From assembly GCF_016887565.1 (NCBI RefSeq), contig NZ_CP069396.1:7856001-7920000 (forward strand): 64,000 nucleotides of DNA, written 5' to 3'. Both the position numbers and the translations under genes were made by a program. This DNA is from Archangium violaceum. Lineage in GTDB: Bacteria; Myxococcota; Myxococcia; Myxococcales; Myxococcaceae. Numbering within the stretch: the first letter of the stretch is position 1; every line of letters begins with the position of its first letter. Shown here piece by piece: positions 34,226 through 63,046 of this stretch. The notes below the pieces were generated by a model. That model saw nothing but the letters and a program-made list of their open reading frames with translations. It searched no databases and was not told the origin of the DNA.

Positions 34226-36784
34226 TCACAGCGAGGCCCGCAGCTCCAGCAGCTGCTTGCTGAAGCGGCTGAAGTCCTCGTCGATGCCGCGCAGCACGCC
34301 CTCCAGCTTGCGGGCGCTCTCACCCAGCTCGCCGGGAATGGCGCTCAACTGCGCGAGCAGGCCCTTGATGCGCACCAGCTCGCCCTCCTTGAGGGTGAGC
34401 AGCGGGAAGCGGCTCTTCACCAGGCGATCGAAGACCTGATCCGCGGTGGCGCGGTTCTGGATGGCCTGTGCCCCGGGCAGTCCGGTGAGGAGCTGGGTGA
34501 GCCAGCTGCGCAGGTACTTGATGCGCGTCTGCACGAAGGACAGCTCCACCCGGGCCAGCGCCTCGCGGATGCCGTCGGAGAGGAAGGAGGCGGCGGAGGG
34601 CGGCCGTGCGAAGGCGAGCTGTCCGTCCAGGCCGGACAGCGCGGCGAGCTCGCCATCCCGGAGATGCGAGGAGAACTCGCTCCGGTAGAAGGTGTAGGCC
34701 TCGCCGCTGACGGCGGCATGGGGGGCGGGCGGAGGACTGGCCACCTCGCGCCCGATGGCTCGCACGTACTCGCGCAGGCGCACCTCGAGCAGCTCCCGGC
34801 ACTCGGCGAACACGGGCTCCGGGGTCAGACCCTCGCGCCGCAGGTTCTCCGCCACCACCTGCACCGTGCGCGAGAGCTGATCGATCCGCTCGAAGGGGGT
34901 GGTGGACAGCACGTCCCGCGCGTAGGCGAACCCGAGCGGCTGCAGCAGCTCCTGCTTGAGGCCGCGCTGCGCCGGGTCCAGCTTGCACAGGGCCTGCTCG
35001 AGCTGGCCGAGCCGGCGCGAATCCGCCGCGAGCGCATCGAGCGGATCCCTCCGGCCGCGAGTGCCCGGGAAGGCACTCTCCGAGCGCTGACGGAGGGCGG
35101 CCACGGCGCGCCGGCGGGCCTCGGACTCCGCGGCCCGCAGCCGCACCACCGCGCCCGCGCTCCCCTCGGCGATCAGCGCCAGGAGCTCTCCCACCCGGCC
35201 CAGCTCCTCGGCGAGGTTGTCCGCCAGCCCGACGAGCGCCTCCAGCACCACCGACTCGTCGAAGGCGAGGCTCTCCGCGTTCAGCGCCATCAGCTCCAGC
35301 GCCTGCATGACGAAGCGGGCCACCGAGTCACACACGGCGGGCAGCCGGGGACGCAGCTCCGGCACCTGGCGGCACAGCTCCAACGTCTCCGAGAGCGCGG
35401 CGAAGACGGCCACGCCCGCGCGGGGCTCCGTCCCCTCGACGGGTCCGCGCGCCACCCGCTGCTCCACCACCGCGAGCAGCCCGCGCGCGGCGCCCAGCAG
35501 GGCCGTGCGGTTCTCCGGGTGCCGGGGTCCCGGAACGAGCTTGATGCGCAGGCGCTGCGCCGTGGTGGAGACGATGCCGGGCTGGAAGTTGCGCGCGAGC
35601 GCCTCCACGGGCTTGAGGTCCTCGGCCGCGCCGAGAGAGACCGCCTCGCGCTCCACGCCCGTGCCCAGCTCCGCGCGAACCTTGGTCAGCGCGGCGTCGA
35701 AGGCCTTCTGCTCGATGCGGACGATCTCCAGCTGCGCGCGCTCGCGCGGGTCCACGGCCACCTTGAGGAGCGACTCGACCTCCTCGGCCTGCGGCCCGCC
35801 GAGCAGGAAGAACCAGCGCAGCGCGTCCAGGTCCTCCACGGTGGCCTCGAGCGGCCGGTCCGGACGGCGGTAGAGCTGATCCCTCACCACCGCGGCCTTG
35901 AGGGCCCAGAGCGCCTTCACCACCGAGCGCTGGGAGAAGTACTTGGTGGGGACATAGTCGGGCAGCTTGGACACCTGGGCCGTGAGCGCGCGCTCCAGCT
36001 CGTCGGCGAGCAGCTCGATGGCCTCGAGCAGGTGACTGGACACCGTCACCCGCTCCACGGCCTCCTGGAGCACGTCGAGCTGCTGCAGGGTGAGGCCGGC
36101 GCGCAGGTCCGGCCGCATGTTGGAGGCGAAGCGGTGCAGCATGGCCGCTCGGCTGGGGCGCCGGGCGAAGGACTTGGGCACGAAGGAGATGAAGCTGAGC
36201 CGATCCGCGAAGGCCAGCAGCAGCTCCGGCGAGCGCGCCAGCACCTCGGAGAGGTAGCGGTTGCTGGTCATGATGGCGCACTCGATGCGCCCCGTCGTCA
36301 CCCGGCGCCCGTGCTTGAGCTCGCGCTCGTGCAGGACGTTGAGGATGGAGCGCAGGAGCATGTCGCGCCCGTCGAAGACCTCGTCGAGGAAGGCGTGGGT
36401 GGCGCCCAGCATGCCGTCCTCGGTGATGAACTCGGTGCGGCCCGTCTCGGTGAGCACCTTGAAGTCCACCGGGCCGATGAGGTCCGTCTGCACGGTGGAC
36501 TCGGCGATCTGCTTGGCGAAGAGCGACGGCTGCCCCGTCTTCTCGTCGAGGATGCGCCCCAGCACCGACGAGGCGATGGCGCTCTTGGCCGTCCCCGGCG
36601 GTCCCACCACGAGCACGTGCTCCCGGCACAGCAGCGCGAGCTCGATCTGGGTGAAGAGCGTCTCACGCTCGAGGTAGGCCTCGCGCAGCTCCTGGAAGAA
36701 GTGGCGGAAGGCCTGCGCGGCCTGGGGGTGGACCTGAGAGGGAGAGTGGATCACGATCGCTCTGGCTGAGACAGGAGGCGACAT
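34226..36784 (-). CDS. MoxR-family AAA+ ATPase with long C-terminal extension
   Basis: The AAA+ domain occupies about residues 25-300: Walker A GPPGTAKS (61-68), Walker B HAFLDEVFDG, sensor IMTSNRYLSE and a lid region. This is the MoxR type, closest in style to RavA. The remaining about 550 residues are helix-rich and unassigned, making the protein (852) much longer than ordinary MoxR (about 330) and longer than RavA (about 500). It probably remodels a target with the VWA protein encoded immediately downstream. It is the first gene of the seven-gene run to 25613. No signal peptide is present. Confidence 0.88.
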   Translation of the reverse strand: MSPPVSARAIVIHSPSQVHPQAAQAFRHFFQELREAYLERETLFTQIELALLCREHVLVVGPPGTAKSAIASSVLGRILDEKTGQPSLFAKQIAESTVQTDLIGPVDFKVLTETGRTEFITEDGMLGATHAFLDEVFDGRDMLLRSILNVLHERELKHGRRVTTGRIECAIMTSNRYLSEVLARSPELLLAFADRLSFISFVPKSFARRPSRAAMLHRFASNMRPDLRAGLTLQQLDVLQEAVERVTVSSHLLEAIELLADELERALTAQVSKLPDYVPTKYFSQRSVVKALWALKAAVVRDQLYRRPDRPLEATVEDLDALRWFFLLGGPQAEEVESLLKVAVDPRERAQLEIVRIEQKAFDAALTKVRAELGTGVEREAVSLGAAEDLKPVEALARNFQPGIVSTTAQRLRIKLVPGPRHPENRTALLGAARGLLAVVEQRVARGPVEGTEPRAGVAVFAALSETLELCRQVPELRPRLPAVCDSVARFVMQALELMALNAESLAFDESVVLEALVGLADNLAEELGRVGELLALIAEGSAGAVVRLRAAESEARRRAVAALRQRSESAFPGTRGRRDPLDALAADSRRLGQLEQALCKLDPAQRGLKQELLQPLGFAYARDVLSTTPFERIDQLSRTVQVVAENLRREGLTPEPVFAECRELLEVRLREYVRAIGREVASPPPAPHAAVSGEAYTFYRSEFSSHLRDGELAALSGLDGQLAFARPPSAASFLSDGIREALARVELSFVQTRIKYLRSWLTQLLTGLPGAQAIQNRATADQVFDRLVKSRFPLLTLKEGELVRIKGLLAQLSAIPGELGESARKLEGVLRGIDEDFSRFSKQLLELRASL

Positions 36785-53804: not shown

Positions 53805-53888
53805 CTGGAGAGGGCCCGAGGAAATGGTGGTACGAATGCATGTGCACTCCATCATGCGCAAGCCTTCGCGTCGGCAAGGGAGTCGAGG

Positions 53889-56567
53889 ATGACCCAGTGG
53901 CACCCCAAGAAATCGATTGATGAGAAAAAGAAAACGGGTGACGCGGAGCAGCTTCAAATCCTCTGGGCCGTGTACGAATCCGTCGTGAAGTCGCCAGCGG
54001 ACCCGGCATTGCGCCCCTCCCTGGAAGAGCTGTCCACGGATCTGACGAAGTTCGCGGATCGAACGACGATGTCCGCGAGGACGTCGGCAATGGTTGGGGA
54101 TTACAAGGCATTGAAGAATGCCCGCAAGATGCTGGAGCAGATCTCCAGCGCCCTGAATGGGGGGTATCACCAGTTCCTCGTGAATCTGGCTTGCTTCAAC
54201 TTCAGGACGGCCATGGGGGGGCGAGCGAGAAAAGCCACATCCGTGTTGCGGAAGGGTTCGGACGACCATTACTCACGCCCGTTCGAGGACGAGGTCCCTC
54301 TGTATGTCAGCTTCTTGCTGGCGAATGTCCCGAACGTGTCGTCGACGTCGAGCACCCAGCCGGAGACCCTCACGCTCGAACCCCAAGGGGGGTACATTCT
54401 TCCGACCCGTTTCACGGCGACGTTTCCGCTCTCCTTGAGAGGGAGCGAAGGCAGTCCCATGATCATGAGGAATCCCCGGGTTCCCAACCGGGGGCTGAGT
54501 GCGCCCACCATCAAGTACGCGTTCATGGGCTCGTTCGGGTTCTCCGAACCTGGCTATTGCACGTGGGACGAGTCTCCAGGCGTGCACGAGTCCGCCGGCA
54601 CGCGTCTGTCTTTGGGCGCATACTCGCTGGATCCGCAATACCTGACGCATGTGCTGTCCCTGGTTCGCGGATTGAATCCGGAGGCCAAGGAGCTCTACAG
54701 GCAGTACGGCAGCGTCGGAGAGCGACACCTCAGGGCCCTGCTCGGCAAGTTCGGAGGGAATGCGGGCCCCCGGCTCGCCATCGCCTGGATCAACCAGATG
54801 GCGGATGTCGCGAGCGCGTTGATCCAGAGGGCTTCGTACGGCCACACGGAGTCGCAGCCGTCCCCCTTGGAGGAGTTCTTCAAGAAGATACAAGAGAAGA
54901 TCGACGGGCGGAGGAAGAAGCTCGCGCAGATCCAGGCCAACCTGGTGGAGAAGGAAGGGATTGGAGCTGCCTCGAAGACCACCCTGTTCGAGTATCTGTG
55001 GGTGTTCGAATCAACCCTGTGGGAGTTCGCCTTCCTGGGCGCGAGCTGCCTGTCGATGGACACGATCGCCAGAACCCTCCAGGGAGTCTTCAGCGATTGG
55101 ACGCCGACGGTCGGTCTCTCCGAGGACAACCTCGTGGAGACCCTGTCGGTCAACGGGACGAGATTTCAAAGGCTCTACTTCCCGTCGGGCACGGCCGCGG
55201 CCAATACCGTGTATGACGCCTTGTGGGCTCTCGGCTTCGGGCCATTCACGCTCAAGGTGGACCCCAAGAAGCTCTCCACCTTCACCCCCTACTTCGAGTT
55301 CTACCAGAACACCACCTCCATCCTCCACCCGACGGAAGTCGGAATCAAAGCCAGGAGCAGGAACCCCAAGTGCGAAGCCGCGCAGGTCTGGCTGAACCTC
55401 TCGGACGGGCTCCACTCGGAGCTGCTGGACGAGCGTCGGGCCAGGCACGACGTCGCGGAGGTGATCGCCCAGATGGCGTCGCAGTACGTCCAGGAGTTGT
55501 ACAACCAGAAGCTTCACTGCTGCGTGACCGATGGCCAGGGCCTCACCATCAATTACGAAAAGGTATGCCTCGTCATCGACTACACGAAGTTCGCCGGGGA
55601 TATGCCCAATGGCCGGCTGTATCCCATCCTCGAGAAGCTCCGCGACCTCTTGCTGGACCTTCGAAAGAAGGAGCCCGAGGTAGTCGATGTCGTCTTCCTG
55701 CGCTCGAATCTGAAATACAACACGGGCTCCCTGGACAGGTACCAGTCGGGAGAGATTCTCGTGGGCCCGGGCAGCCACGGACAAGGGCTCTCCAAAAGTC
55801 TATCCAACCTCGCACCGGACTCATTCTCGAGTGATAGCGAGTGGAGCCTGCGGGGGGATTACATTCCCCTCATGAAGAAGATGTACCTGTTGTCCGACGC
55901 CGTCGGCTTCGGACGCTGGAGGGAGTACTCCAAGCTGTGGCCGGGCGGCGTCTTCCGGCCGCGCCCGCTCGACGTCAAGCTCGCCGCGTCGAGGGTCGAG
56001 ATCGTCATCCTCGTCGACTACACCCTCTCGCCCATCTTCACGCATCTCATCAGGGAACTCTCGGATGGGAAGTACCAGAAGGATTTGCCCGAGAAGGTGA
56101 AGAGCGCCATCCGCGATTACTGGAAACGGATCGTCCAGGACAAAGTCGCTCTCGAGGAGCACTACGACGTCGAGTCGAAGGTGCTCGAGGTCACCGGTTA
56201 CCTCGAAAGGGAGCTGAGCCAGATCATCGATATGTTGACCGACGCCGTCCAACGAATCCCCAAGTCGTACGTCGGGACGTCGAGGCAGCCTCTTGGTCAG
56301 TACGTACAGCGGATGGTGAGCGCCAGGGAGAAGATGGCGTCGCTCCAGGTTGGCGAGGACTCCGGACTCGCGGACACGCGTTGCTGTCGCTGCAAGAAGG
56401 CGCGTGGAGGGGTCTCCTCGAGGGAAGCGAAGTGGCACGTCTGCACGAAGTGCGGTGCCAACTTCTGCCCCACCTGCGGCTCCATGCTCCCGCTCCGCCG
56501 CTTCCAGTCCCAGGTGGCGCGCGCGTGCTCCTCATCCTCGTGCAAGGGTCCAACGAGGTTCGCTTGA
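53889..56567 (+). CDS. Orphan 892-residue protein: PLP-enzyme-like core and C-terminal zinc module
   Basis: I do not recognise this as a described family. N-terminal 1-120 is helical; 130-260 is a beta-rich region; 320-355 is a charged coiled coil. The core (about 400-630) has three spaced motifs reminiscent of fold-type-I PLP enzymes: YFPSGTAAANTVYDAL (phosphate-binding loop, 430-445), LVIDYTKFAGD (D564) and RSNLKYNTGSLDRYQSGEI, with K609 as candidate Schiff-base lysine. About 705-715 repeats a similar strand (VILVDYTLSP). The last 60 residues hold C832, C833, C835, then C852-x2-C855, C860-x2-C863, C880 and C885, a multi-cysteine zinc module. The third codon positions are less GC-rich than in neighbours. 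ATG 53889 has GGGAG and GAGG upstream. No domain is certain. Confidence 0.8.
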   Translation: MTQWHPKKSIDEKKKTGDAEQLQILWAVYESVVKSPADPALRPSLEELSTDLTKFADRTTMSARTSAMVGDYKALKNARKMLEQISSALNGGYHQFLVNLACFNFRTAMGGRARKATSVLRKGSDDHYSRPFEDEVPLYVSFLLANVPNVSSTSSTQPETLTLEPQGGYILPTRFTATFPLSLRGSEGSPMIMRNPRVPNRGLSAPTIKYAFMGSFGFSEPGYCTWDESPGVHESAGTRLSLGAYSLDPQYLTHVLSLVRGLNPEAKELYRQYGSVGERHLRALLGKFGGNAGPRLAIAWINQMADVASALIQRASYGHTESQPSPLEEFFKKIQEKIDGRRKKLAQIQANLVEKEGIGAASKTTLFEYLWVFESTLWEFAFLGASCLSMDTIARTLQGVFSDWTPTVGLSEDNLVETLSVNGTRFQRLYFPSGTAAANTVYDALWALGFGPFTLKVDPKKLSTFTPYFEFYQNTTSILHPTEVGIKARSRNPKCEAAQVWLNLSDGLHSELLDERRARHDVAEVIAQMASQYVQELYNQKLHCCVTDGQGLTINYEKVCLVIDYTKFAGDMPNGRLYPILEKLRDLLLDLRKKEPEVVDVVFLRSNLKYNTGSLDRYQSGEILVGPGSHGQGLSKSLSNLAPDSFSSDSEWSLRGDYIPLMKKMYLLSDAVGFGRWREYSKLWPGGVFRPRPLDVKLAASRVEIVILVDYTLSPIFTHLIRELSDGKYQKDLPEKVKSAIRDYWKRIVQDKVALEEHYDVESKVLEVTGYLERELSQIIDMLTDAVQRIPKSYVGTSRQPLGQYVQRMVSAREKMASLQVGEDSGLADTRCCRCKKARGGVSSREAKWHVCTKCGANFCPTCGSMLPLRRFQSQVARACSSSSCKGPTRFA

Positions 56568-56663
56568 GCGTGCCGCCCCCCGGCCCGTTTGTTCCACCCC
56601 GGGAACGGTGATTTGCCCGGCGGGGCTCTAGTGGAATGACGGCCCGCCGCGCATGCTCTCTCT

Positions 56664-57593
56664 ATGTCTTCGTACCGACCCGACAGGCGCAGCATCCTCA
56701 AGGCCGCTGCGTTCGGCGTCGCCTCGACCCTGCCACTGCTGGGGTGCCGCGATCCGGCTCGCTCCGCGCGCTCGCCCCAGGAGGGAACTTCCACCATGAC
56801 CGCCACCTCCTCCGAGCAACGCATGCCGGTGCTCTTCATCGGGCACGGCTCCCCGATGAATGCCATCGAGGACAACACCTGGACCCGCGGCTTCCGCTCG
56901 CTCGCCGGGCAGCTGCCCAGGCCCAAGGCCATCCTCTCGATCTCCGCGCACTGGTTCCTCCCCGGCACCTTCGTCACCGGGAACGAGCACCCGCCCACCA
57001 TCCACGACTTCGGCGGCTTCCCTCGCGAGCTCTACCAGATGCAGTACCCGGCCCCCGGCAGCGTCGAGCTCGCCCGGCGCGTGGTGAAGCTGCTCGGGCC
57101 CTCTCGCGCGTCGGTCCAGGACGACTGGGGCCTCGACCACGGCACCTGGACCGTGCTCCACCACCTGCGCCCCGCGGCGGATGTCCCGGTCGTGCAGCTC
57201 AGCATCGACGCGCGGCTCGCTCCCTCCGAGCACCTCGCGCTGGGCCGCGCGCTCTCCGGGCTCCGCGACGAAGGCGTCCTGGTGATGGGCAGCGGCAACG
57301 TGACGCACAACCTCCGCCACGCCTTCTCGAGCATGCGCTCGGGCGATATCACCATCCCGAGGTGGGCGGAGAGCTTCGACCAGGACGTGGCCCGGGCGCT
57401 CGAGCAGCACGATGGCGCCTTCCTGGCGCGCGTCATCGAGACAGACGCGGGCCAGATGTCGCACCCGAGCATCGACCACTTCCTCCCCCTGCTGTACGCC
57501 GCCGGTGCCGCCAATGACCGCGATGCGGTGCGCTTCCCGGTGAGCGGATTCGATCTCGGCTCGCTGTCGATGCGCTCCGTGCTCCTCGGCTGA
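56664..57593 (+). CDS. DODA-type (YgiD-like) extradiol dioxygenase with optional export leader
   Basis: The class III extradiol/4,5-DOPA dioxygenase family: VLFIGHGSPMNAI, ILSISAHWF, TIHDFGGFP, DWGLDHGTWTVL and GSGNVTHNL supply the metal-binding histidines and catalytic His. From ATG 56664 the first 44 residues are DRRSILKAAAFGVASTLPL then LGC, a twin-arginine motif and lipobox (LLGC), unusual for a family normally cytosolic. An internal ATG at 56796 (MTATSSEQRMPVLFIGHG) is preceded by AGGAGG and would give a normal-length cytosolic enzyme. Ring-cleaving activity on a catechol-type substrate is expected. The neighbouring LysR gene is convergent. Confidence 0.88.
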   Translation: MSSYRPDRRSILKAAAFGVASTLPLLGCRDPARSARSPQEGTSTMTATSSEQRMPVLFIGHGSPMNAIEDNTWTRGFRSLAGQLPRPKAILSISAHWFLPGTFVTGNEHPPTIHDFGGFPRELYQMQYPAPGSVELARRVVKLLGPSRASVQDDWGLDHGTWTVLHHLRPAADVPVVQLSIDARLAPSEHLALGRALSGLRDEGVLVMGSGNVTHNLRHAFSSMRSGDITIPRWAESFDQDVARALEQHDGAFLARVIETDAGQMSHPSIDHFLPLLYAAGAANDRDAVRFPVSGFDLGSLSMRSVLLG

Positions 57594-57619
57594 GGCCGCG
57601 GTGGAACCCTCCCGGCGGC

Positions 57620-58513
57620 TCAGCCTCCGGTGGGGGAAGCCGAGAGCGGCCGCCCGTTGAGGAACTCGAGCAGGAAGTCACGGAAGGCCAACACCTTCCT
57701 CGGGACATGCTGGGTTCGCGGGTACAGCATCACCAGGGACGTCGACGGTTGCGTGTAGCGCGGCAGCACGCGGACGAGCTGCCCGGACGTCACGTCCGCC
57801 TGGGCGAGGAACGTGGGGAGGGCCGCGATTCCCGAGCCCGCCTTCACCGTCTCGCGGATGAAGAGCATGTCGTCGGCGAGCACGCGCGCATGTTTCTCGG
57901 GAAGGCCCAGCTCTCCGAGGAACTTGAGCCCCCGGAACGCGACGAGGTCGTGCTGGGCGAGATCCTCGGGCGCACGGGGCGTCCCCCGGCGGGCGAGGTA
58001 CATCGGCGAGGCGTAGAGCTGCACGTCGAGCGTCCCGAGCCGCCTGACCCTTAGCGACGAATCCGTCAGCTTCGAGCCCGAGGCGCGCAGCGCGAGATCG
58101 AACCCCTCCGCCACCAGATCCACGTTCCGATTCGTCAGGCGGCAGTCGATCCTCACCGAGGCGTAGCGCGCGGTGAAGCGGGCGATGACCTCGGGCAGGA
58201 AGGTGGCTCCCATGTCATGCGGCGCGGTGAGCCGAAGCTCGCCAGAGGGGGCCTCCTCCCGCTCGGGCAGGGTCCCGACCGCCTCCTTCAACGAGGCGAG
58301 CAGGGGCGCCGTCCGCTCGTACAGCGCGGTCCCGGCGGTGCTCAACGAGACCTGGCGTGTGGTGCGGTGGAGCAGTTGTGTGCCCACCGAGGCCTCGAGG
58401 CTCGCCACTCCCCTGCTCACGGAGGACTTGGGCAGCCCGAGCTTGCGGGCCGCCTTCGAGAAGCTGCCGGTCTCCGCGACGGCCACGAAGAGGCCGAGGA
58501 GGTTCAAATCCAT
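57620..58513 (-). CDS. LysR-family transcriptional regulator
   Basis: 297 residues: HTH (LNLLGLFVAVAETGSFSKAARKLGLPKSSVSRGVASLE), linker helix and a LysR effector domain with LRLTAPHDMGATFLPEVIARF and DLALRASG, resembling the CrgA-like subgroup that controls single-step detoxification genes. ATG 58513 (MDLNLLGL) is favoured over GTG 58534. It starts 17 bases after the stop of the sensor kinase on the same strand and is convergent with the dioxygenase, which is a plausible target. The effector is unknown. Confidence 0.9.
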   Translation of the reverse strand: MDLNLLGLFVAVAETGSFSKAARKLGLPKSSVSRGVASLEASVGTQLLHRTTRQVSLSTAGTALYERTAPLLASLKEAVGTLPEREEAPSGELRLTAPHDMGATFLPEVIARFTARYASVRIDCRLTNRNVDLVAEGFDLALRASGSKLTDSSLRVRRLGTLDVQLYASPMYLARRGTPRAPEDLAQHDLVAFRGLKFLGELGLPEKHARVLADDMLFIRETVKAGSGIAALPTFLAQADVTSGQLVRVLPRYTQPSTSLVMLYPRTQHVPRKVLAFRDFLLEFLNGRPLSASPTGG

Positions 58514-58530
58514 GTCAGTACCGTCTGGCC

Positions 58531-60558
58531 TCACTTCGGATTCCGCCCCTCATCGCCCGGATCCTCCCCCACCGGCAACTCCACCGTGAACGTGGAGCCC
58601 TCTCCCGGGTGGCTCTCGACGGAGATGGTCCCTCCATGGGCCTCCACCAGCCACCTCGCCAGGTAGAGCCCGAGCCCCAGCCCGCCATAGTTCCACTCCG
58701 GTACCCCGCGGCCGAAGCGCTCGAAGATGCGCGCCCGCTCGCTCTCTGGCATGCCGATGCCGCGATCCTTCACCACCAGGAGCACCGAGCCGTTCCGCGG
58801 TGTCACGCGCACGTCGATGGGCTGGCCCTGGCCGAACTTCAGCGCGTTGTGCATCAGGCCCGTCACCACCTGCTCCATCCGGCGCGCGTCCCACCAGCCC
58901 ACGGCCGCGGTCGCCAGCTCACGCCGTACCTCGGAGCCACAGTTCGCTGCCTGCTGCCGCATCCCGTCGAGCACGCCCGCGACCAACCCTCCCAGGTCCA
59001 CCCGCTGACAGCGCAGCTCCAACGGGTGGCCCGCGCTGAGGTTGGACACATCCAGGAGCTGATCCACCAGCCGCCCCAACCGCTTCGTCTGCTGCTCGGC
59101 GGCGGCCACCTCGTCCAGCACCCAGGCGGGCTCCAGGGGAGCGGCACTCCGGCCGCGGCGCAGCAGGCCCTGCACGCGCAGCTGCAGCGGCAGCAGCGGG
59201 GTGCGCAGCTCGTGCGCGGCCACGGAGAGGAAGACCTCGCGCAGGCGGATGGCCTGCTCCGCCTGCCGGTACAGCCGCGCATTGTCGATGGCGATGGCGG
59301 CGCGGAGCGCCAGCTCCTGGGCCAGGGAGAGCTCGGCGGTCCCGTAGCGCTCCGGCGTGGACGACACGAGCGAGATGGAGCCCAACGTGTGCCCGCGGGC
59401 CACCAGCGGAACCACCAGCAGGCTCTGGATGCCGAGCGCCCGCGCCAGTTGGAAGTGCTCGTCATTCGCGCACATGGCGCGCAGCCGCTCATCGGTGACG
59501 TGGGGCTCCAGCATCGGCTCGCCGCTGCGCACGACACGAGACTGAGGGGACGTCGAGCCAGGCCTGGGAGGAAAGCGGCGCCGCAGCTCATCGAGCAGGG
59601 GCTGCTTCGCCGCGTCCACGTGCGCTCCGCGCACCCGTCGCACCTCTCCGCCCTCCTCCAGGTCGATGACGCACCAGTCGGAGAGCCTCCCCACGCACAG
59701 CGAGGCCACGCGCGACAGCACCGTCTCCAGATCGAGCGAGGTGAGGAGGACCTCGCCGGCCTCGGCCAGGAAGGCGCTGGCGGCCTCGGAACGCTGGCGC
59801 TCGTCCAGCTCCTGGCGCAGCGACTCGCGCATCTCGTTGATGGCCGAGCACACCTCGTCGAGCTCGTCGTTGAGGGTACTTTCCGAGGCCCTGCGTTGCA
59901 GCACCAGGGGCGAGTCCAGGTGCTCCGGGCTCAGCCCGCGTGTGTAGGCGGCCATGGTGGCCAGGTGCTGCGTCACCAGGCGCTGGACGATGAAGAGGAC
60001 GAACAGGGCGATGAGGAACGTCTTGGCCGCCTGTGTGGCGAGGATGACGAGCACCCGGTCCCACAGGCGCGCGTAGATGCCGTCCAGGGTGGCGCGCACC
60101 CGGAGCGTGCCCAGGTAGAGCTGCTCGTGATAGAGCGGGATGGAGCGCTCCACCACCTTCTCCGGACGGGGCGGGCTGCCCGCCACGTACTGGGTGCCCA
60201 GGGCGCTGTCCACCTGGGCCTGGGCGATGTCCGGCAGGGTGGTAATCCCCTCGAGCTCAATGCGCAGCGGGGCCTCGTCGAGCGACCAGAGGCTCTGGGC
60301 GATGCTCTGGGCATGGCTGGAGCGGATCTGCTCCAACCGCTCCTCCAGGGCGTGGACCTCGCGCTGGTAGTCCGCGAAGAGCTGCACCGTGGTGCCGGCC
60401 AGGCTGACGACGGCGCTGAAGAGCATGATGGCGACGAGCAGCCGACGGCCCAGCCGGTTGTCGGGACTCAGCCACCACCCGGTCAAAGACGACCCGGAGC
60501 GGGCGGAGGCCACGGCCTCAGGGTTGCCGCTCGAGGGGGACTGGGCGCGTGAATCCAT
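58531..60558 (-). CDS. GAF-domain sensor histidine kinase paired with a periplasmic binding protein
   Basis: 675 residues. Two transmembrane helices (about 40-64 and 171-193) enclose a periplasmic sensor of about 105 residues; then a HAMP-like region, a coiled coil, a GAF domain (about 265-430), HisKA with H449 in LSVAAHELRTPLL, and HATPase_c with GLGLYLARWLVEAHGG. The kinase boxes are intact. It overlaps the 3' end of the periplasmic sugar-binding gene by 41 bases, so the two are co-translated. I infer that the binding protein delivers its ligand to this periplasmic domain. No response regulator is next to it; a LysR gene follows. Confidence 0.93.
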   Translation of the reverse strand: MDSRAQSPSSGNPEAVASARSGSSLTGWWLSPDNRLGRRLLVAIMLFSAVVSLAGTTVQLFADYQREVHALEERLEQIRSSHAQSIAQSLWSLDEAPLRIELEGITTLPDIAQAQVDSALGTQYVAGSPPRPEKVVERSIPLYHEQLYLGTLRVRATLDGIYARLWDRVLVILATQAAKTFLIALFVLFIVQRLVTQHLATMAAYTRGLSPEHLDSPLVLQRRASESTLNDELDEVCSAINEMRESLRQELDERQRSEAASAFLAEAGEVLLTSLDLETVLSRVASLCVGRLSDWCVIDLEEGGEVRRVRGAHVDAAKQPLLDELRRRFPPRPGSTSPQSRVVRSGEPMLEPHVTDERLRAMCANDEHFQLARALGIQSLLVVPLVARGHTLGSISLVSSTPERYGTAELSLAQELALRAAIAIDNARLYRQAEQAIRLREVFLSVAAHELRTPLLPLQLRVQGLLRRGRSAAPLEPAWVLDEVAAAEQQTKRLGRLVDQLLDVSNLSAGHPLELRCQRVDLGGLVAGVLDGMRQQAANCGSEVRRELATAAVGWWDARRMEQVVTGLMHNALKFGQGQPIDVRVTPRNGSVLLVVKDRGIGMPESERARIFERFGRGVPEWNYGGLGLGLYLARWLVEAHGGTISVESHPGEGSTFTVELPVGEDPGDEGRNPK

Positions 60559-61717
60559 ACAACTCCAGGAGATTGCCCGGGAGGCGGAGGTGCCGCTGCG
60601 CGAACAGGGCTCGGAGAGAGAAGTCGTAGTGCGTCAGCGCGGGGTTGGCCGCCTTGGAGAAGGCACGGAAGTCGATTGCTTCCCAGTCACCCTCGCCGAG
60701 GAAGCGGAGGACGGTGTCCACGTTGTCACGTGAGACGGGGGCCATCGTCGTGCGCCAGTCGAGCCCCTCGGAAGCGAAATCGCGTCCCTGGTGGTAGTCG
60801 TGGAGCAGCACCAGCACCCACGCGCCCTCGAGGAAATGGCCGCCGAGCGTCGTCACCATGAGGCCCTCGCGCACGGCCTCGAGGGCGCCGGGTGTCCAGT
60901 CCATGCCACCCACCCAGACGTCCTGCCCCGGGTGACGTCCGGCGTCCTCCACGGCATGCAGGGAGGCTCGCGCCATGTTGTCGTTGGCGGCCCAGATGAC
61001 CTGCAGCTCCGGGTAGCGGCGCAGCAGCAGCCGCGTCTTGCGCAGGGCCACGTCCTCATCCCAGGAAGCCGAGACCCCCTGGAGGAGCACGGCACCGTCC
61101 CACTCGGACACGGCCTGACGCAGCCCCATGGTGCGCCCCAGCGCGGCGGCATCCCCGAGCTGTCCCTCGAGCGCGACGAGTCCCACGGGAGCGCCGGGAG
61201 CGCCGGGAGCGCAGCCTCGGGTCGCGGCCTCGAGGATGAGCCGGGCCAGCAACTGGCCGGCGTGTTCCTCGTCCGGCCGCATCTGGCCGAGCCAGTGCGG
61301 AAAGTGTCCACGGGGTCCGCCAAAGCGAGCCGTGTCCTCGGGCATCAGGCCGGAGTTGATGACGAAGACGGGAACGCGGTTCCGCTGGGAGAGCTCGAGG
61401 AGGCGGCTCCCCACGCCCCGGTGCATCGAGAGGATGACGTAGTCGGGCTTTCCGGGCCCGGTCATCACCTGACGCGCCTGCTCGAGGATCTCCCCGGGCC
61501 AGTGGCCGCTGGAGTGGATGGAGAGGTCGATGCCCAGGTCCCCCGCCGCGGCCCGCATGGCGTCCAGAACGAGCCCCCTCCAGGGATTGGCCGGTCCCAT
61601 GCTGTCGAGGAAGGCCACCCGCATCGGCCTGTCCGCCGGAGCTACCTGGGCCGCCGCGTCTGGCGCGAGGAGCAGCAGAGAGAGGATGAGGACGACGAGC
61701 CGCCAGACGACGGGCAT
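60518..61717 (-). CDS. Periplasmic sugar-binding-protein-like sensor protein
   Basis: 399 residues with a cleavable signal peptide (WRLVVLILSLLLLAPDAAAQ) and a type I periplasmic-binding fold: MRVAFLDSMGPANPWRGLV, DYVILSMHRGVG, VPVFVINSGL, LQVIWAANDNMARASLHAV and DVWVGGMDWTPGALEAV, as in ribose/galactose binders. There are no permease or ATPase genes nearby. Instead its last 41 bases overlap a histidine kinase gene, as for binding proteins that act as sensor modules (LuxP- or TorT-like logic). The ligand is unknown; a sugar or autoinducer is likely. ATG 61717 opens the signal peptide. Confidence 0.85.
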   Translation of the reverse strand: MPVVWRLVVLILSLLLLAPDAAAQVAPADRPMRVAFLDSMGPANPWRGLVLDAMRAAAGDLGIDLSIHSSGHWPGEILEQARQVMTGPGKPDYVILSMHRGVGSRLLELSQRNRVPVFVINSGLMPEDTARFGGPRGHFPHWLGQMRPDEEHAGQLLARLILEAATRGCAPGAPGAPVGLVALEGQLGDAAALGRTMGLRQAVSEWDGAVLLQGVSASWDEDVALRKTRLLLRRYPELQVIWAANDNMARASLHAVEDAGRHPGQDVWVGGMDWTPGALEAVREGLMVTTLGGHFLEGAWVLVLLHDYHQGRDFASEGLDWRTTMAPVSRDNVDTVLRFLGEGDWEAIDFRAFSKAANPALTHYDFSLRALFAQRHLRLPGNLLELYGFTRPVPLERQP

Positions 61718-61999
61718 GGGCCAGTCCCCCCTTCCGCGCGCGGTGCTGGAAACGAAAGCTACACCGTGCGTCCCATCGTGCGTAGCCCCATCGACCCGTT
61801 ATCTCGGTGCGTCGAATGCCCGACAGAGCCCGAGCGGGCGGAGGAGTACGGCGCCGGCCCGCCTGAAGCCATTCGCGGCGCCGTATTTCGTACGCCTCAG
61901 GGGCAGAACCAGCCGTCCTGCACAGTGAAGACAACGGGGCGGGTCAAACGCATGCGCATCTCTCGTCTGACAGATATTGCCAGCAACCAGGGCCTTCTC

Positions 62000-63043
62000 A
62001 TGGAGCGCCCTCCTGCACTGACGCATCCGTTCGGCGCACCGGCCCGCTTCGTGGTAGTGGGGCGCTCGACCATGGACTCCCACCACGGCGCCGTCACGCT
62101 TCAGATCAACCTCGCGCCCACCGACCTTCCCCACGCGCGCCACATCCTGCCGCACCAGTTGCGGCAGCTCGCGGCCTCCGTGGACGAGGTGCTGCTCGTG
62201 CTGGACCTGCACCGCAGCAAGGGCCATCGCTTCGCGGCGGCGTGGGAGGAGCGCCGCCCGGGGATGGAAGCCCTGCTCGCGGAGCTGTGCGCACGCTACC
62301 CGCGGGCGAAGGTGCGCGAGGTGGACTACTCGCCCACCACCGCCTCCGCCATGGCCGAGCGATTCTTCGGCGGAAAGCCCGTTCCCCTGAAGGACTCGCG
62401 CGGCGGGCCGTACTACTCGTACGTGTACGGGCTGCACGCGGCGACGCACGATCTCGTCTTCCACCTCGACGCGGACATCCTCCTGGGAGGCGGCTCGCCC
62501 ACCTGGGTGTCCGAGGCCGTACGGCTGCTGGACTCGCGGCCGGAGCTCCTCTACTGCGCGCCCCACCCCGGCCCTCCCGCGGCCGACGGGCGCCTGCGCA
62601 TCCACCTGCGCGGTGGCATCGAGCCCGATTCCTCCGTGCCCTCCGGATTCCTGATGCGGCGCTTCAGCACCCGCGTCTTCCTGATGGACCGGCGCAGGCT
62701 CCTCGAGCGGCTCGTGCCCCTCAAGCGCAAGCTGGCGCCCCCCATCCATCTGCTGCGGGCTCTGCGCGCGGGCAATCCCCCCTACCGCGAGCCGGAGAAC
62801 ATCCTCACCCGGGCCATGGAGCGTGAAGGTCTGCGGCGGCTCGACTTCCTGGGCCAGTCGCCGGGGCTGTGGAGCCTGCACCCGAAGTGGCGCTCCAAGG
62901 AGTTCTACGACGCGCTCCCCGAGGTCATCCGCCGGGTGGAGGCGGGCGACATGCCCGAGGCCCAACGCGGCGACGACGACCTCAACGACAGCCTCGTGGA
63001 CTGGACGAGCGCCCGGGCCGCCCTGCGCCAGCGCAAGTCCTGA
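62000..63043 (+). CDS. Glycosyltransferase-like protein (GT-A-type fold)
   Basis: 347 residues from ATG 62000. YGLHAATHDLVFHLDADILLGG contains an Asp-Ala-Asp pair (D157, D159), like the metal-binding DxD of GT-A glycosyltransferases. Upstream, TLQINLAPTDLPHARHILPHQLRQL fits the first nucleotide-sugar-binding strand and helix. The rest is unassigned. Alternative starts at 61952 (MRISRLTD) and GTG 61925 give an extension of unclear value; none has a strong ribosome site. No signal peptide. Probably transfers a sugar to an unknown acceptor in the cytosol. It is convergent with the hydrolase gene. Confidence 0.65.
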   Translation: MERPPALTHPFGAPARFVVVGRSTMDSHHGAVTLQINLAPTDLPHARHILPHQLRQLAASVDEVLLVLDLHRSKGHRFAAAWEERRPGMEALLAELCARYPRAKVREVDYSPTTASAMAERFFGGKPVPLKDSRGGPYYSYVYGLHAATHDLVFHLDADILLGGGSPTWVSEAVRLLDSRPELLYCAPHPGPPAADGRLRIHLRGGIEPDSSVPSGFLMRRFSTRVFLMDRRRLLERLVPLKRKLAPPIHLLRALRAGNPPYREPENILTRAMEREGLRRLDFLGQSPGLWSLHPKWRSKEFYDALPEVIRRVEAGDMPEAQRGDDDLNDSLVDWTSARAALRQRKS

Positions 63044-63046
63044 CGT

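Follow-up and report, generated by a model that had tools for sequence, protein, structure and literature searches.

A rare Myxococcales protein family with a likely fold-type-I PLP core and, in one member, a C-terminal FYVE-like zinc module

The 64,000-nucleotide stretch of Archangium violaceum DNA analyzed here (the window) carries, at 53889-56567 on the + strand, a gene whose open reading frame translates into a protein of 892 residues, as an earlier note on this DNA had stated. Its codon-position G+C contents of 0.55/0.44/0.83 follow the pattern of a real gene. Overall, the gene has 61.0% G+C, whereas the window averages 68.6%. When a frame of gene length is slid along the window, just 0.26% of its positions give a lower value, and the minimum falls on the gene. 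Local hand counts made earlier (35 G/C in 60 bases at 54301, 41 at 36601) proved exact. Codon usage of the gene was also compared with that of the window genes. From our own reading of their sequences, we take the gene upstream to encode a sensor kinase and the one downstream a LigB-type dioxygenase; no operon partner of the 892-residue gene is evident at the window locus. Residues marked below as corresponding to aspartate aminotransferase (AAT) are proposed equivalents.

53889-56567, + strand: whole gene, 892-residue protein (open reading frame, translation, homologues)
53805-62007, no strand assigned: 8.2-kb segment with the gene at its left edge (blastn of the window against the sister Archangium G005, whole-genome search)
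53889-54338, + strand: N-terminal helical part, residues 1-150 (AlphaFold model)
54366-54629, + strand: conserved strand region, residues 160-247, with PTRFTATFP, GSFGFxEP and TRLSLGAY (alignments)
54633-54953, + strand: helical insertion, residues 249-355 (AlphaFold model)
54969-55958, + strand: fold-type-I PLP-like core, residues 361-690 (Foldseek and VIA-align matches)
55182-55205, + strand: PSGTAAAN, residues 432-439, proposed phosphate loop, G434/T435 corresponding to AAT G108/T109
55389-55418, + strand: WLNLSDGLHS, residues 501-510, N503 corresponding to AAT N194 (N503, S505 and H509 invariant)
55575-55601, + strand: IDYTKFAGD, residues 563-571, D564 corresponding to AAT D222 (D564 and T566 invariant)
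55704-55754, + strand: SNLKYNTGSLDRYQSGE, residues 606-622, S606, K609 and R617 corresponding to AAT S255, K258 and R266 (invariant, AAT spacing)
55965-56342, + strand: C-terminal helical region, residues 693-818 (model, alignments)
56382-56564, + strand: FYVE-like zinc module, residues 832-892, absolute C-terminus (alignment, PDB profile search)

In the sister Archangium G005, the kinase gene is followed directly by a glycosyltransferase gene, the counterpart of window positions 62008-63045, whereas 8.2 kb intervenes in the window. The dioxygenase-LysR pair that lies to the right of the gene in the window is located elsewhere in G001-G003, without the 892-residue gene. A rearranged segment therefore brought the gene in or shifted it. 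Together with low G+C and a patchy distribution, this insertion supports the horizontal gain proposed in the earlier note; as far as the known members show, it took place among Myxococcaceae and related Myxococcales. Plasmid records, phage records and viral contigs contained no relatives of the protein, so that a phage or plasmid origin lacks support.

Although labelled an orphan in the earlier note, the protein has homologues: eight members are known, none of them in an annotated family. Whole-genome searches of 195 Myxococcota genomes yielded seven (in G000, G004, G041, G047, G126, G127 and G153), and the eighth lies in a Myxococcales metagenome-assembled genome (MAG); a weak 29-position match in G040 was left out of the count. 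Archangium violaceum Cb vi76, Corallococcus carmarthensis and Corallococcus interemptor are among the sources. Pairwise identities among the eight range from 34 to 50%, except for one Corallococcus pair at 89%. The 892-residue protein matched no Pfam or NCBIfam family in the profile libraries, no sequence in the PDB and no defence family in PADLOC; its Pfam matches to EAD8, ECM29 and Snapin fell below cut-off and were treated as noise. The family is rare and unnamed, and its members are from Myxococcales, mostly Myxococcaceae. In the MAG (L054 57-7098), T6SS sheath genes, a DUF4280 gene and an AMP-binding-domain gene adjoin the divergently oriented family member.

The stretch common to all eight homologues ends near residue 681, and five stop there, at the equivalent of AAT ~327-335, where the C-terminal small domain of AAT begins; AAT R386 consequently has no counterpart. 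The remaining three continue as a helical bundle (the window, A. violaceum and MAG members, A. violaceum having the region twice), which is followed in the window member by the zinc finger. The two copies in the A. violaceum member (L053 133-3207) stand in tandem and are nearly identical, implying a recent duplication. Some structure alignments (VIA ranges) start at residue 239 and match the residues there to strand one of the small domain of aminotransferases. The C-terminal cysteine module occurs only in the window protein among the eight members. In the three members of one clade (L043, L044 and L045), a CxxC...CxxC ribbon at the N-terminus takes its place, and another member opens with a short Cys cluster, so zinc-type modules have been joined on at either end.

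The motifs on which a PLP-enzyme core had been proposed (PSGTAAAN, IDYTKFAGD and the stretch at residues 606-622) lie exactly at the positions given earlier. We compared them with AAT, whose first-shell residues include G38, G108, T109, W140, N194, D222, S255, K258, R266 and R386 (PMC3823064). G434, N503, D564, S606, K609 and R617 are invariant in all eight homologues and follow the AAT order; A437 is likewise invariant and T435 nearly so. Residues 601-630 form the most conserved core stretch (16/30 invariant); this conservation marks the motifs as more than a chance resemblance. Within it, the candidate Schiff-base lysine is flanked by an invariant Ser at -3 and an invariant Arg at +8, and the S606-x2-K609-x7-R617 spacing (3 and 8) is identical to that of AAT S255/K258/R266. 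Of the 16 Aminotran_1_2 proteins in this genome, 7 have a Lys-x7-Arg motif of this type, as against none of 8 Aminotran_5 and none of 8 Cys/Met-type proteins. By our own reading, the PROSITE class-I signature around the lysine is kept only incompletely in the core.

Structure prediction used five of the eight known family sequences. The AlphaFold model had a mean pLDDT of 67 (about 80 in the core), while a single-sequence fold (mean pLDDT 39) was discarded. The order of elements in the model is that of a PLP large domain (strand-G434-helix, strand-N503, strand-D564, strand-K609, R617-strand), placing the invariant K609, D564 and G434 in the order and modelled secondary-structure context right for fold-type I. 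As the earlier note had proposed, the model was searched with Foldseek; this search and one with VIA-align retrieved almost only fold-type-I PLP enzymes, over residues about 374-681. The first 41 Foldseek rows against the PDB were all aminotransferases, with a best E of 0.014, above 0.001, at probability 0.97. The best VIA-align match was the PLP-dependent hydroxylase RohP (Z 8.7, 210 residues, 4.4 Å), only slightly above a background in which best Z values of 7-8 are common in the absence of true relatives. Rank 50 still reached Z 7.2, where Z 4-5 is typical for models without a clear match, and almost all matches were fold-type-I PLP enzymes; what gives this result weight is how uniform the list is and how slowly Z falls, not the best Z. 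In the AAT rows, model residue 374 aligned to AAT ~50 and residue 681 to AAT 327, end points that, in an ungapped alignment, would put K609 no more than about 3 residues away from K258. For RohP and MppP, the distance from the lysine to the alignment end fits less well than for AAT. A viral structure library gave no useful match for the model.

Profile comparison with the aminotransferase classes, also proposed earlier, went the other way. Against the Cys/Met, class V and class I/II families, hhalign gave the core probabilities below 1%, whereas those families find each other at 97-99%; a class I subset likewise stayed under 1%, and local, global and low-threshold modes found nothing significant among PLP families. 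Aminotransferase class I/II (PF00155) gave no match above its curated cut-off and an hhalign probability of 0.1-0.2%. AAT and other class I/II enzymes, including RohP and MppP, are like the core in strand and helix order and in the G/T loop, N, D and S-x2-K-x7-R, and they are its best structural matches, yet show no detectable profile similarity. The family differs from them by about 350 extra N-terminal residues and by the lack of a C-terminal small domain, and the window member further adds the helical bundle and zinc finger. Cys/Met-metabolism PLP enzymes (PF01053) share a GxAA-type loop and Lys-Tyr after a strand, but their profile alignment to the core is weak (58 columns, loop only; hhalign probability 0.5%) and they lack its K-x7-R spacing (0/8). 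The PLP-like core proposed in the earlier note is therefore favored by structure matches and by the invariant Lys, Asp and phosphate-loop residues, and weakened by a modest E of 0.014 and Z of 8.7 and by the missing profile match. We consider it likely that the core, as modelled, has the fold-type-I PLP fold.

For the C-terminal module, at least nine cysteines had been claimed, and nine were counted from residue 832 on (832, 833, 835, 852, 855, 860, 863, 880 and 885). The module follows the spacing C-x2-C-x16-C-x2-C-x4-C-x2-C-x16-C-x4-C, with all eight Cys columns invariant; in five aligned sequences the eight Cys, the WH before the third Cys and the Arg before the seventh never vary. A profile search of the PDB placed FYVE domains best (RUFY1, E 0.0016; EEA1, E 0.0021), and Pfam FYVE appears weakly in several module carriers. 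The cysteine pattern suggests that the module binds zinc. Eukaryotic FYVE domains bind lipids through the motifs WxxD and R(R/K)HHCR. The modules lack WxxD before the first Cys, and R(R/K)HHCR is reduced to AKWHVC in the window protein and WHxC in the others; because these motifs are not kept, phosphoinositide binding is not assumed. Compared with FYVE fingers (PF01363, PF02318; RUFY1, EEA1), the module thus shares the eight-Cys pattern, the His two before the third Cys and the Arg before the seventh, but differs in the two lipid-binding motifs, in being bacterial and in always standing at the very C-terminus. A published survey noted the zf-FYVE-PHD clan in Myxococcus and its absence from non-myxobacterial deltaproteobacteria (PMC4765838).

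A phylum-wide profile search found nine further clear carriers, giving ten Myxococcaceae proteins in all; plasmids and viral contigs contained no relatives of the module. In each of the ten, the module forms the absolute C-terminus, the last Cys lying 7-9 residues from the end, while the upstream parts fall into seven unrelated groups. In the G015 carrier, one domain matches models of toxin deaminases, Bd3614-like and MafB19-like. Guesses of nitrilase-, ADP-ribosyltransferase- and amidoligase-like domains for other carriers were dropped, as in those searched nothing beyond the finger matched Pfam or the PDB. In three Corallococcus-group carriers (L048 6438-6731 and those in L049 and L050), the last loop of the module contains a hydrophobic, glycine-rich insert, possibly membrane-spanning. 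In G021, a second, apparently degraded module copy lies downstream of an intact carrier (L016 about 5136, - strand). The zinc module of the earlier note is hence real and FYVE-like. Its presence on unrelated proteins is what a recruitment tag would show; there is no sign of nucleic acid, the other target that the note had suggested.

We hypothesize that the window protein is a divergent PLP enzyme of the class I/II kind with an exchangeable terminal docking tag, the best reading of the data (probability about 0.6). K609 would form the Schiff base with PLP, D564 would hold the pyridine nitrogen and N503 the 3' oxygen, while G434/T435, S606 and R617 would hold the PLP phosphate. As the family lacks the usual small domain at the C-terminus, the substrate, presumably an unusual one, would have to be held by the long and conserved N-terminal region. 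The FYVE-like finger would act as a separate, exchangeable C-terminal tag that docks the enzyme on a partner. For the family and its window member we infer cofactor binding, catalysis and docking from these features, and the balance tips somewhat towards the family being an active PLP enzyme.

Two other readings concern the core itself. It could have another alpha/beta (Rossmann-like) fold, with the aminotransferase matches and motif spacing coincidental, as the modest Foldseek E and Z values and the missing profile similarity would allow; we regard this as unlikely, given that fold-type-I PLP enzymes make up nearly the whole list of matches as far as rank 50 and that the order and spacing of the landmarks agree independently. 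Less probable still is a PLP-type fold that has ceased to bind PLP and acts as a scaffold or binding domain. The loss of the small domain and of the sequence signal in profiles speaks for such a scaffold. Against it, every residue proposed to contact the cofactor, the Schiff-base Lys and the phosphate Arg among them, is invariant across homologues of 34-50% identity.

A third reading, compatible with a PLP enzyme, is that of a secreted effector (e.g. type VI) whose terminal FYVE-like module, shared with other effectors, would serve as a tag for delivery or targeting. The MAG member adjoins TssB/TssC and a DUF4280 gene, one module carrier has the toxin-family (Bd3614/MafB19-like) deaminase domain, a second carrier has a DUF2169 gene at a distance of about 3.7 kb, and VipB is present in all carrier genomes. 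VipB is, however, near-universal among larger Myxococcaceae genomes, so its co-occurrence says little. The MAG gene stands at the edge of the cluster in divergent orientation, and beside the members at the other family loci there is no recognizable secretion gene (1/8 beside TssB/TssC), nor was an immunity-like neighbor recognized (0/8 with an obvious immunity gene). The PLP-like family is moreover depleted in DUF2169 genomes: DUF2169 occurs in 1/7 family-positive versus 48/58 other VipB-bearing Myxococcaceae genomes (P 0.0006, not corrected for relatedness). An effector role is therefore possible but not favored, and we hold it about as improbable as the scaffold.

We put forward, tentatively and with the odds against it, that myxobacteria use the FYVE-like finger as an exchangeable, strictly C-terminal address tag on accessory or effector enzymes, one passenger being a new PLP enzyme family that lacks the small domain and has a new activity. 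Few folds are as well catalogued as that of PLP enzymes, so a conserved family that no profile covers, and that lacks the small domain by which the active site is normally closed, would widen the range of the fold. A bacterial FYVE-like module that moves between unrelated proteins and is always terminal suggests that predatory bacteria have a sorting or docking system not yet described.
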